Source of the DNA: Rhabdophis nuchalis
Lineage: Eukaryota > Chordata > Lepidosauria > Squamata > Natricidae
Reading direction: 5' to 3'
DNA length: 64,000 nt
NCBI GenBank assembly: GCA_039707465.1
Contig: CM077644.1
Location: forward strand, 84,080,375-84,144,374
The notes under the pieces were generated by a model that did no database searches, was not told the DNA's origin, and worked only from the letters and a program-made list of their open reading frames with translations. This document shows positions 9,857 to 11,758 of this stretch, piece after piece (within the stretch, counting starts at the first letter, position 1; each line of letters begins with the position of its first letter). The position numbers and the translations under genes are program-made.

Positions 9857-10121
9857 TGTTCCACAACACCCTGTTAGGGCCCCAATTAAGGGAGGAGACA
9901 TACTGTTTCTTTTTCTGCCTTTTGGCTCATCACCAGAGACCATCTAGATAGAAAGCCATGAGTTCCGTTGTGTGATTTTTTAAATATGTGTGTTAGTTTT
10001 ATGAGCTGATCAATAAATTAAGTTAGAGAGAGACCAGGATAGATCTATTTCGAGCTTATTGGCTCTCATCAGCTGGCCATACCCTTTACTGGGATTCGAA
10101 CCGGGGCTATATTAAGAGTAT
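9857..10121 (-). mobile_element. Hammerhead SINE-like unit, subfamily 1, minus arm of palindrome 1
   Basis: Read on the minus strand: B-box match GGTTCGAATCC (about 10091-10103), hammerhead motif (10032-10078), AT-rich body, and a conserved end that gives AGGGTGTTGTGGAACAA followed by an AT microsatellite (9841-9856). The same end abuts GT repeats at 11.41 kb and TCTG repeats at 43.42 kb, so a microsatellite tail belongs to the unit. It is head-to-head with the plus-strand copy that starts at 10122, and the pair would fold into a hairpin of about 200 bp. Confidence 0.75.
10032..10078 (-). ncRNA. Hammerhead ribozyme motif, type I, subfamily 1
   Basis: Minus-strand order: helix I strand GGCCAG, core CTGATGA, helix II GAGCC with loop AATA and AGCTC (outermost loop-side pair mismatched, C-A), core GAAA, helix III from the palindrome TAGATCTA closed by A15.1-U16.1, C17, then helix I strand CTGGTC. 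All invariant core bases are present. Cleavage is predicted between 10038 and 10037 on the minus strand. The only defect is one weakened helix II pair. Confidence 0.8.
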
Positions 10122-10168
10122 GACTAGCTGATGAGAGCTAATAAGCTCGAAATAGATCTATCCTGGTC
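10122..10168 (+). ncRNA. Hammerhead ribozyme motif, type I, subfamily 1
   Basis: Helix I strand GACTAG (10122-10127) pairs with CTGGTC (10163-10168), with one G-U wobble. Core CTGATGA is 10128-10134. Helix II GAGCT/AGCTC (10135-10139, 10144-10148) has loop AATA. Core GAAA is 10149-10152. Helix III comes from TAGATCTA (10153-10160), closed by the A15.1-U16.1 pair (10152 with 10161). C17 is 10162, with cleavage predicted after it. All invariant core positions are intact. Confidence 0.85.
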
Positions 10169-10323
10169 TCTCTCTAATTTAATTTATTGATCAGCTCATA
10201 AAACTAACACACATATCTAAAAAATCACACAACGTAATTCCTGGCTTGCTGTCTAGATGATCTCTGGTGATGAGCCGAAAGGCAGGAAAGGAAACAGTAT
10301 GTCTCCTCTTTTAATTGGGTCCA
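10122..10323 (+). mobile_element. Hammerhead SINE-like unit, subfamily 1, plus arm of palindrome 1
   Basis: The arm starts exactly at the hammerhead (10122) without the pol III boxes, and repeats the body of the minus arm through GTCTCCTC and AATTGGG, where it breaks off at about 10317 into the next unit. Identity to the minus arm is high by eye over about 195 bases. Confidence 0.75.
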
Positions 10324-10364
10324 GATGGATCCATTTCAGGCTTATTAGCCTTCTTCAGCTGGCC
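10324..10364 (-). ncRNA. Hammerhead motif, subfamily 2, junction-damaged helix I
   Basis: Minus-strand order: GGCCAG, CTGAAGA (position 7 is free in the consensus CUGANGA), helix II AGGCT-AATA-AGCCT, GAAA, helix III palindrome TGGATCCA, T, C17 at 10324. The following bases read TGGACC rather than CTGGTC, so helix I is probably impaired. Confidence 0.7.
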
Positions 10365-10668
10365 ATACTCCTTCTACTGGGATTTGAACTGGTGCTTTCC
10401 AGCATATGAGACAGACTTCTCTATGCCTTGAGCTATCCAGTATCCCTGATATATCAGCCAATTTACAGGACTCTTAAATGAGAGATAATTATCACAGCTC
10501 CTGTTTCAGGGTCCCTTTAAGGGGAGGAGACTCAACGTCATCCCTCTCTGCCCTTCGACTCATCCTAGAGATCAACCAGACAGAGAACCAATTAGATTAC
10601 TGCTGTGTGACATTTTTTAGATATGTGTTAGATTTTTTAAGGGCTGAAAATAAAGAGACCAGGATGGG
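10324..10668 (-). mobile_element. Hammerhead SINE-like unit, subfamily 2, full-length monomer
   Basis: Read on the minus strand, this arm begins within about 5 bases of the predicted cleavage site (CTGGTCTC from 10662) and ends at C17 of the next hammerhead (10324): a 339-base monomer with ribozyme ends. Its order is helix I 3' strand, AT-rich body, GACGTTGAG and AAAGGGACCC blocks, pol III-like A and B boxes, then the hammerhead. The arm at 10692-10994 carries the same unit in the opposite orientation and circularly permuted. Downstream of C17 one C of helix I is lost at the junction with the preceding unit. Confidence 0.8.
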
Positions 10669-10691
10669 ATGACGTTGAAAATAAAGAGACC
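10669..10691. repeat. Palindrome centre with short tandem duplication
   Basis: Around 10647-10708 a segment of about 30 bases (AAAATAAAGAGACCAG then GATGACGTTG) occurs twice in tandem, at the point where the minus arm and the permuted plus arm meet. This looks like a junction scar left by insertion or repair. Confidence 0.6.
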
Positions 10692-10792
10692 AGAGGGATG
10701 ACGTTGAGTCTCCTCCCCTTAAAGGGACCCTGAAACAGGAGCTGTGATAATTATCTCTCATTTAAGAGTCCTGTAAATTGGCTGATATATCA

Positions 10793-10864
10793 GGGATACT
10801 GGATAGCTCAAGGCATAGAGAAGTCTGTCTCATATGCTGGAAAGCACCAGTTCAAATCCCAGTA
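10793..10864 (+). promoter_or_regulatory. tRNA-like pol III internal promoter (A and B boxes)
   Basis: TAGCTCAAGG (10804-10813) resembles the A box TRGCNNAGYGG, and AGTTCAAATCC (10849-10859) resembles the B box GGTTCGANTCC. In subfamily 1 the B box is a perfect GGTTCGAATCC (minus strand near 10100; plus strand near 11650). The spacing is tRNA-like, but T-arm and acceptor pairing is poor, so this is a SINE-type tRNA-derived head rather than a tRNA gene. The ribozyme starts about 10 bases downstream of it. Confidence 0.65.
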
Positions 10865-10874
10865 CAAGGAGTAT

Positions 10875-10921
10875 GGCCAGCTGAAGAAGGCTAATAAGCC
10901 TGAAATGGATCCATCCTGGTC
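10875..10921 (+). ncRNA. Hammerhead ribozyme motif, type I, subfamily 2, intact
   Basis: Helix I GGCCAG (10875-10880) pairs with CTGGTC (10916-10921). Core CTGAAGA is 10881-10887. Helix II AGGCT/AGCCT (10888-10892, 10897-10901) closes loop AATA. Core GAAA is 10902-10905. Helix III is from palindrome TGGATCCA (10906-10913) with U16.1 at 10914 and C17 at 10915. Relative to subfamily 1, helix II and helix III differ by compensatory pair changes, which supports selection on structure. Confidence 0.88.
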
Positions 10922-10984
10922 TCTTTATTTTCAGCCCTTAAAAAATCTAACACATATCTAAAAAATGTCACACAGCAGTAATCT

Positions 10985-11060
10985 AATTGGTTCTAATTAG
11001 ATTACTAATTAGGTAATCTAATTGGTTCTAATTATATTACTAATTAGGTAATCTAATGTC
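10985..11060. repeat. Two-copy tandem repeat of about 37 bases
   Basis: TAATCTAATTGGTTCTAATT-type sequence is repeated after the end of the permuted unit, mixed with a second GTCACACAGCAGTAATC block (10968-10985 and 11057-11074). It looks like local slippage at the element end. Confidence 0.55.
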
Positions 11061-11092
11061 ACACAGCAGTAATCCAATTATATATATAAGCA

Positions 11093-11276
11093 CTTCAGGT
11101 TGGTGCTTCCGGCTTGGTGCTTCATTGCTCCTGGAAGCACCAAGCCGGAAGCACCAACCTGAAGATGATGAATGAGATTTCATCGAAATGTCGTGAAGAT
11201 ACTTCCAATTCTACGTGGGAGAAAACCCGAACAACCAAAGACCTACATACAAACACCCGCGAAAACCTCAGAAAAC
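11093..11276 (+). mobile_element. Penelope-like hammerhead element, head-to-head fragment
   Basis: Arms of 31 bases (11093-11123 and 11134-11164) form a perfect inverted repeat around a 10-base loop; the right arm continues into a CTGAAGA...GAAATGTC hammerhead motif and a downstream block (GAAAACCCGAAC, ACCTACATACAAACACCC, AAAACCTCAG) that ends at an AT microsatellite. The motif order fits Penelope-like element pLTR sequence. No coding domain is present. Confidence 0.55.
11147..11206 (+). ncRNA. Hammerhead ribozyme motif of the Penelope-like kind
   Basis: CTGAAGA (11159-11165), helix II GATGAA with TTCATC, GAAA (11185-11188), then TG and the pair UC (C17 at 11192). The core is complete. Helix III is minimal, as in Penelope-like element ribozymes, and the usual GAAACGTC ending appears as GAAATGTC, consistent with one CpG decay. 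Helix I can form from GGAAG (11147-11151) with CTTCC (11202-11206) around an internal loop. Confidence 0.6.
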
Positions 11277-11409
11277 ATATATATATATATATATATATAT
11301 ATATATATATATATATATATATGTATGTGTATGTGTGTGTGTGTGTGTGTGTGTGTGTGTGTGTGTGTGTGTGTGTGTGTGTGTGTGTGTGTGTGTGTGT
11401 GTGTGTGTA
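11277..11409. repeat. AT then GT dinucleotide microsatellite
   Basis: About 45 bases of AT followed by about 85 bases of GT repeats, lying between the tails of two hammerhead elements. Open frames across it are simple-sequence translation. Confidence 0.95.
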
Positions 11410-11656
11410 ATTGTTTCACAACAACCTGTTATTATTAGGCCCCAATTCAGGGAGGAGACATACTGTTTCCCTTAATGCCTATCGGCTCATCACTAGAGAC
11501 CATCCAGACAGCAAGCCAAGAATTACGTTGTATAATATTTTAGATATGTGTGTTAGTTTTATGAGCTGATCAATAGATTAAATTAGAAGAGACCAGGATA
11601 GATCTATTTCGAGCTTATTAGCTCTCTATTTCGAGCTTATTAGCTTATTAGGTTCG
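11410..11656 (-). mobile_element. Hammerhead SINE-like unit, subfamily 1, minus arm of palindrome 3
   Basis: Same order as 9857-10121 on the minus strand, ending in the TTGTTGTGAAACAA-like terminus beside the GT microsatellite. Its ribozyme (about 11592-11640) is rearranged: the block from the helix II loop through GAAATAGA is duplicated (11618-11640) and CTGATGA is missing, so it cannot be active. Confidence 0.7.
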
Positions 11657-11758
11657 AATCCCAGTAAGGGGTATGGCCAGCTGATGAGAGCTAATAAGCT
11701 CGAAATAGATCTATCCTGGCCTCTTCTAATTTAATTTATTGATCAGCTCATAAAACTA
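11648..11758 (+). mobile_element. Hammerhead SINE-like unit, subfamily 1, plus arm of palindrome 3
   Basis: Starts at the B box GGTTCGAATCC, continues through an intact hammerhead (11675-11721) and the AT-rich body as far as CATAAAACTAACACACA, where the sequence has turned into a CA microsatellite (11759-11802). Confidence 0.75.
11675..11721 (+). ncRNA. Hammerhead ribozyme motif, type I, best-preserved copy
   Basis: Helix I GGCCAG (11675-11680) pairs perfectly with CTGGCC (11716-11721). Core CTGATGA is 11681-11687. Helix II GAGCT/AGCTC closes loop AATA. Core GAAA is 11702-11705. Helix III is from palindrome TAGATCTA (11706-11713), with U16.1 at 11714 and C17 at 11715. Every invariant core base and every helix pair is satisfied. 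Cleavage is predicted between 11715 and 11716. Confidence 0.9.

Follow-up and report, generated by a model that had tools for sequence, protein, structure and literature searches.

The closest described relatives of the element reported here are the non-LTR (long terminal repeat) retrozymes of metazoans, known from coral, mussel and axolotl, which form tandem units of 150-450 bp with a canonical type I hammerhead ribozyme, a GC content below 50% and no LTR (PMC7229834; this and the other published accounts, except PMC11167929, are drawn on in part). The axolotl retrozymes have units of about 330-353 nt and a helix III that is short and, in one group, capped by a palindromic tetraloop, and these features recur in a repeat family that we describe from the snake Rhabdophis nuchalis, starting from a window of 64,000 nt (assembly GCA_039707465.1, contig CM077644.1, forward-strand positions 84,080,375 to 84,144,374; bare coordinates below are positions in this window). 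The units fall into two subfamilies, A and B, and we consider it probable, at roughly 0.8, that they represent a non-autonomous family of the non-LTR retrozyme kind with a tRNA-Ala-like head, mobilised by the enzymes of Penelope-like elements. The host sets the family apart, since the string "reptil" is absent from PMC7229834, and the A and B boxes, the head-to-head pairs, the two fixed 3' ends and the Penelope-type footprint of the snake unit are unmatched in the parts of that account drawn on. The retrozymes described there are expressed as linear and circular RNA, and their target site duplications, when present, exceed 4 bp; the snake unit is known from DNA alone. Amphibian retrozymes with a short, palindromic-loop helix III cleave better as dimers (PMC7229834).

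Other hammerhead-bearing elements offer partial parallels. Sm-alpha and Sj-alpha of schistosomes, to which the unit can be likened by description, resemble short interspersed nuclear elements (SINEs), measure about 335 bp and carry a type I hammerhead (PMC8490949). The Penelope-like element PAc of Anolis shares with the snake unit a hammerhead lying before two internal starts, an AT-rich target and the extension of both strands, but the snake unit has no protein, its hammerhead is canonical rather than minimal, and its sites lie farther apart (PMC11167929). Intronic hammerheads are known from reptiles, birds and mammals (PMC6155905). Of the amniote HH9 and HH10 (C10 and RECK), HH9 (RF02275) is the Rfam model that the A-type motif matches best; both sit at fixed, conserved intronic places, whereas the snake unit is a mobile family (PMC3088659). 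The C10 and RECK hammerheads have been likened to repeat-borne ones of Xenopus and may descend from such a repeat (PMC3088659). If the human C10 and RECK ribozymes do have that origin, the snake family may be a living relative, in an amniote, of their source.

The initial annotation of this DNA knew of no described squamate family of this kind, and we can extend the statement to any reptile among the matches listed and in the open PMC literature, a scope outside which Repbase, Dfam and subscription papers lie. The kind of element is known; what is new is the amniote host, the tRNA-like head and a quantified Penelope-type footprint of two sites and two strands. This genome combines a young Penelope element with a young family whose intact ribozymes number in the thousands, a matched enzyme-template pair on which the spread of hammerhead-bearing non-coding elements could be put to a direct test.

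The hammerhead and the repeat unit

A strict motif scan of the window finds five type I hammerhead motifs at 10.0-11.7 kb, on both strands, and the same scan finds none in 100 first-order Markov windows used as a random control. Those on the plus strand (C3 to C17 at 10128-10162, 10881-10915 and 11681-11715) possess the core bases and all three helices, as had been claimed for intact copies at 10122, 10875 and 11675, although the motifs number five and not three; the remaining two lie on the minus strand (10072-10038 and 10358-10324), and a junction removes the 3' half of stem I from the second. Helix III consists of three pairs and a palindromic GAUC loop (AUA-GAUC-UAU in A, AUG-GAUC-CAU in B), and a fourth stem III pair counted by the scan, which would close a two-base loop, is impossible within one molecule. 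An above-threshold Rfam match, proposed as a check by the initial annotation, was not obtained: no copy reaches the gathering score (52 for HH9), including the one at 10875, for which no hammerhead match is listed at all, and at gathering scores Rfam matches neither the window nor 14 related loci. Under a permissive search HH9 (RF02275) matches the three A-type copies at 35.9, 35.3 and 33.7 bits (E 9e-7 to 4.5e-6), 16-18 bits under the gathering score, and matches locus L019 twice. Folding energies of four copies (z -0.07 to -1.95) give the hammerhead no support by themselves. The motif is thus real by structure, yet lies outside the curated Rfam families.

Its conservation can be followed across the window and the related loci, where 118 of 136 motif starts are intact. 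We analysed 50 distinct full motifs, 3 of the 53 distinct motifs having been dropped as broken by a junction; the motif list was picked by its 5' half, which forces the columns GTATG and AGCTGA. Standard pairs make up 97.1% of pair cells, compared with a mean of 91.6 and a maximum of 92.8 in shuffles (0 of 1,000 as high) and with 22-49% in slid versions of the pairing scheme, and two-sided changes are found at 5 of the 15 pairs, three of them in stem II and one each in stems I and III. G12 is replaced by A in 8 of the 50 motifs, so broken hammerhead copies exist.

The family is young, high-copy and dispersed. In the host genome (1,917,733,297 bases, 348 contigs) an exact 31-mer of the A hammerhead occurs 5,070 times (2,389 + 2,681 by strand) and its reversed control not once; a degenerate hammerhead motif had 0 exact matches in viral and prokaryote contigs. 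A 125-nt query gave 308 first-look candidates, 40 of which were scored, yielding 47 matches that represent the best rather than a random sample; 41 of these, the window's own included, cover 118-125 of the 125 query bases at 98-100% identity. Further hammerhead subfamilies appear in L001, L005, L006, L043, L046 and L056, distinguished by a stem I (GGCTAG/CTAGTC) or a stem II (GGACT/AGTCC, GGGCT/AGCCC) that is peculiar to them, and might provide a dating series.

The unit measures 339 nt in the window and mostly 343-347 nt elsewhere. The 339-base length already noted by the initial annotation is confirmed by a B monomer on the minus strand (10662 to 10324), which extends from C1.1 to C17, between successive cleavage sites, across the join of one unit's 3' end with the next unit's tRNA-like head. 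Same-strand neighbours at distances of 250-450 nt number 11 in the fetched loci, and 10 of them are spaced 343-346 nt; L034 holds three units in succession, and 40 of 223 blocks exceed 395 nt; by eye, the first 100 places listed for the 31-mer include 7 same-strand neighbours within 500 nt, six of them at a spacing of 338-347 nt. The unit is therefore a seamless tandem or circularly permuted monomer, and seamless repetition between cleavage sites is the architecture of a retrozyme and not of a plain SINE. Sm-alpha, which has an RNA polymerase III (Pol III) promoter, had been offered as the model; the likeness holds for the non-coding and multicopy nature of the family, its A and B boxes, microsatellite ends and conserved hammerhead. 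A and B units are 68-69% identical along nearly their whole length, with GC contents of 41.7 and 42.5%, and the longest stop-free stretch in the doubled unit is 68-69 aa, hence neither a reverse transcriptase nor a GIY-YIG endonuclease is encoded.

Box A and box B patterns occur in both units. The boxes had been placed upstream of each hammerhead, and this is true of the B pair, which has both; two A copies have the B box only (10102-10092, minus strand, and 11651-11661, plus strand), and the arm at 10116 (plus strand) begins downstream of the box. Against a tRNA-Ala gene the A head scores 36, a score reached by 0 of 300 shuffles (best of seven) and by 1 of 3,118 window tiles, and the resemblance is one of sequence level only. 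TTTT is absent from the sense strand of the A unit and occurs once in that of the B unit, and the units would be transcribed by Pol III if the boxes function as such. The matching tile, at 16522, belongs to a different tRNA-like repeat: at about 16440-16530 (minus strand) a stretch scores 55 against tRNA genes, a strong likeness, and is perhaps another SINE's head. A tRNA origin of the B head was considered and set aside as weak; 0 of 300 shuffles reach its best score, but 12 of 2,780 tiles do, several of them the unit itself, and the A head gives the better case.

Copy ends, head-to-head pairs and Penelope-like elements

The ends of the copies bear on the mobility of the family. Mapping of the blocks used three references, a real A unit (from L019) and the window's B unit, both doubled, and the window's Penelope-like fragment, in 69 sources: L001-L070 less L040 (which is the window) and L041 (which overlaps L042), plus the window. 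L001-L038 were chosen by similarity to the family query and L039-L070 by similarity to a Penelope piece, 32 of whose 40 places were fetched. The 3' ends fall at two fixed sites in every case: 60 of 152 A ends lie at site 1 (unit 185-203), 56 at site 2 (44-58) and 36 elsewhere; the 69 B ends divide into 25, 19 and 25, and the 79 Penelope ends into 49, 22 and 8. Microsatellites adjoin 106 of 116 site ends in A, 43 of 44 in B and 65 of 71 in Penelope, as compared with 64 of 3,000 random window stretches, and they adjoin 11 of 36, 9 of 25 and 5 of 8, respectively, of the other 3' ends. The microsatellite tail that the initial annotation saw at the far end of the unit is accordingly well founded, the microsatellites at the A and B site ends being of TA or CA type. 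The flanks of the copies are mostly microsatellites, and 9 of 41 pairs have TA at either end.

The 5' ends of A and B copies are scattered. Several copies begin at or beside TTCGAA of the B box, at about 283 of the A unit (TTCGAATCC), and 11 of 115 unseeded A 5' ends fall in the bin 271-285. Site 2 lies 46 nt past the cut in A and 56 nt past it in Penelope, and site-2 copies of A run on through the cut into the ribozyme and head; the template must therefore have had the cut joined, being either circular or uncut. We also considered a footprint of self-cleavage at the copy ends, since the B monomer at 10324-10662 seemed bounded by cleavage sites, and rejected it: the 5' ends are unenriched overall, the break at 10324 sits in a 12-nt palindrome, and the break at 10667 is 2-5 nt off the cleavage site.

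Copies tend to stand head to head. Same-family neighbours at most 30 nt apart are so arranged in 46 cases for A, 11 for B and 12 for Penelope, compared with 14, 2 and 0 tail to tail and 7, 2 and 2 on the same strand, and the first 100 listed places of the 31-mer give, by eye, 7 head-to-head and 0 tail-to-tail neighbours within 500 nt. Because the loci were chosen by similarity to the query or to Penelope, pairs were counted without seed arms. Of 38 such head-to-head pairs, 20 use both sites and 3 use one site twice, and in 15 an end lies at neither, an excess of both-site over one-site pairs with p 2.4e-4 against even odds, while 77 of the free arms end at site 1 and 92 at site 2. All 69 head-to-head pairs give 35, 6 and 28; an earlier subset without L051-L070 (25 different-site and 7 same-site pairs) is replaced by the count without seed arms. 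For 20 of 57 pairs the inner ends lie within 25 nt of each other, where 2,000 permutations give 11.6 pairs on average and 22 at most, a proximity that lends modest support to a snap-back origin of the pairs. RNA pairing linking both sites, also considered, is predicted in B and not in A, and was dropped.

The Penelope-like elements of the same genome behave comparably. A 121-nt Penelope piece gave 475 candidates, 40 of which were scored with 48 matches, and since the full-length ones have 98-100% identity the Penelope element is young too. Its 3' ends at site 1 lie 113 nt, and those at site 2 84 nt, past the first ATG of the piece, which is taken as the start of the frame by analogy with PAc, and the main start of PAc lies 111-118 nt past the ATG (PMC11167929). 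In vitro the Anolis PAc protein uses two internal starts, both strands are cut and extended, and AT-rich targets are preferred (PMC11167929). A GIY-YIG-like motif is present in 8 of 80 loci, and in L043, L047 and L058 it precedes the Penelope piece by about 290-850 nt on the same strand; three fragments score 20.9-22.5 bits for PF01541, just under the cut-off of 22.6, and two other frames tried for GIY-YIG gave no match. Copies are also intermixed, 21 of 30 Penelope-seeded loci holding the family (20 at >=80% identity) as compared with 1 among 10 size-matched random loci (p 0.0013). The family works like a Penelope element in its two internal 3' ends and its use of both strands, a likeness of operation and not of membership. 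The initial annotation had called the unit unlike Penelope, which is fair as far as the missing reverse transcriptase and the lack of a BLAST match to the Penelope fragment (E up to 1) go, yet the unit leaves an insertion footprint of the kind that Penelope-like elements leave in this genome.

Mobilisation and competing explanations

From the footprint of the same kind and the intermixed copies we infer that Penelope enzymes mobilise the family. Penelope elements have previously been named likely helpers of retrozymes on the grounds that both carry type I hammerheads and share genomes, and the role of hammerheads in Penelope elements themselves has been called a mystery (PMC7761336). A plausible course of events would begin with Pol III reading through tandem units, as the lack of TTTT in the A unit suggests, after which the hammerheads would cut the multimers into monomers and a host ligase, by analogy with published retrozyme work, may circularise them. 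The insertion template would be such a circle or an uncut multimer, with both sides of the cleavage site joined, and a Penelope-like reverse transcriptase with its GIY-YIG endonuclease would insert it at TA- or CA-rich sites. Synthesis would start at either of the two fixed internal sites seen in the copies, often at one site per target strand, and head-to-head pairs would result. We speculate that the hammerhead may double as a recognition handle for the Penelope protein. A bolder version, in which a living amniote retrozyme is mobilised by Penelope in trans through an unusual mechanism, with site 1 used on one target strand and site 2 on the other, from RNA joined at the cut and with the hammerhead serving less to cut than as a landing mark for the protein, seems to us somewhat less probable than its contrary, and we offer it tentatively.

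Several observations weigh against mobilisation of a tRNA-headed retrozyme by Penelope enzymes, or against the support for its parts. For the two B-type hammerheads (10881, plus strand, and 10358, minus strand) Rfam lists no hammerhead match, even with E values as high as 10 allowed. Shuffles of the motif columns, which ignore the relatedness of the copies, give as many two-sided pairs (mean 4.06, maximum 6) as the 5 observed, so the weight of the support for the fold rests on the paired fraction. ARAGORN finds no tRNA in the window or in 15 related loci, and Rfam lists no tRNA match in the window or the related loci. No excess of 5' ends is seen within 5 nt of the cleavage site (6 of 151 in A, p 0.46; 3 of 66 in B, p 0.45), so the genome gives no sign of cut linear RNA as a template and the copy ends do not show that cleavage happens. 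The two sites are 27-30 nt apart in Penelope and 142 nt apart in the A unit. Penelope is weakly enriched in family-seeded loci (10 of 38 at >=80% identity vs 0 of 10, p 0.07), and the intermixing could stem from a common liking for microsatellites. Finally, Penelope insertion in vitro is independent of hammerhead activity, and the start site is alike on both strands there, while the pairs in this genome tend to differ (PMC11167929).

Alternatively, the unit might be an ordinary tRNA-derived SINE moved by a long interspersed nuclear element (LINE) of CR1, L2 or RTE type, its hammerhead incidental and its inverted pairs produced by twin priming. The tRNA-like head with A and B boxes, the 5' truncation, the microsatellite tails and the LINE reverse transcriptase pieces in the window would all fit, but there are two internal 3' ends instead of one, the tandem units are seamless, Penelope copies leave the same kind of footprint, and the arms of a pair overlap in unit coordinates, which twin priming on one monomer would not be expected to produce. 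We regard this explanation as unlikely. A DNA repeat of satellite or foldback type that recombination had spread through microsatellite-rich DNA, its hammerhead a functionless relic, would account for the tandem arrays, palindromes and microsatellite borders; it appears very improbable given that young copies are dispersed over many contigs with differing flanks, that fixed 3' ends are combined with scattered 5' ends as in target-primed synthesis, and that stem pairing is kept across subfamilies. Just as improbable is an origin of the unit by degeneration of a Penelope pLTR (pseudo-LTR), which would make it a non-coding derivative and no independent element, for although the hammerhead lies shortly before an internal start site, the insertion footprint is similar and copies are intermixed, neither A nor B unit has a BLAST match (E up to 1) to the 187-nt Penelope fragment of the window, no A or B box pattern occurs in that fragment, and the hammerhead is canonical in the unit and minimal in Penelope.

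Arrangement of the copies in the window

The six main arms form three head-to-head pairs, A at 9847-10113/10116-10322, B at 10324-10667/10692-10994 and A at 11407-11626/11651-11765. The initial annotation missed their head-to-head pairing, the Penelope fragment at 11090-11276 and a truncated copy at 43422-43540. In the first pair, the minus-strand A arm (9847..10113) comprises the B box at 10102-10092 and the body and has its 3' end at site 1, with (TA)n beyond it, and the stem I strands of its hammerhead (C3-C17 10072-10038) are 10078-10073 and 10037-10032. Its plus-strand partner (10116..10322; hammerhead C3-C17 10128-10162) stops short of site 1, at the junction with B.

The minus-strand B monomer of 339 nt (10324..10662) has its A box at 10435-10426, its B box at 10389-10380 and the 5' part of a hammerhead at 10358-10324, and the plus-strand B arm (10692..10994), circularly permuted relative to it, has the A box at 10804-10813, the B box at 10850-10859 and a hammerhead at 10881-10915 with a predicted cut at 10915/10916. 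Tandem duplications of 31 and 35 nt mark the inner and outer junctions of this pair (10645-10707 and 10978-11057) and look as if synthesis slipped there. A short B fragment (unit 49-73) follows at 11055..11079 on the plus strand, and then the Penelope-like pLTR/tail fragment (11090..11276, plus strand), with a minimal hammerhead from 11159 and its 3' end at Penelope site 1.

An (AT)n(TG)n microsatellite (11277..11408) separates this 3' end from that of the next A arm (11407..11626, minus strand), which ends at site 1. The last A arm (11651..11765, plus strand) carries the B box at 11651-11661 and a hammerhead at 11681-11715 with a predicted cut at 11715/11716, and ends at internal site 2, followed by (CA)n. 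Apart from these, a 5'-truncated A copy without a hammerhead lies at 43422..43540 on the minus strand, with an (ACAG)n tail; its inner end, judged by eye, also bears a small piece of the sense strand.

At 39106 on the minus strand (about 39030-39110; CTGAAGA...GAAATGTT) lies another minimal hammerhead of Penelope type, which (CA)n follows within about 80 nt. Elsewhere in the genome, the overlapping loci L041 and L042 (G000:C4, about 26.955-26.957 Mb) hold a composite of Penelope and the B unit, with two Penelope matches on one strand at a distance of 597 bases. In the window, 1112-3091 and 32779-35201, both on the minus strand, are occupied by LINE fragments that contain RVT_1 and endonuclease domains. 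The reverse transcriptase of the first points to a snake host: it best matches a protein of the snake Pituophis (82% over 31% of the query), with 83% over 34% for Ahaetulla and 79% over 58% for Naja, also snakes, and mostly 45-66% for the lizards listed.

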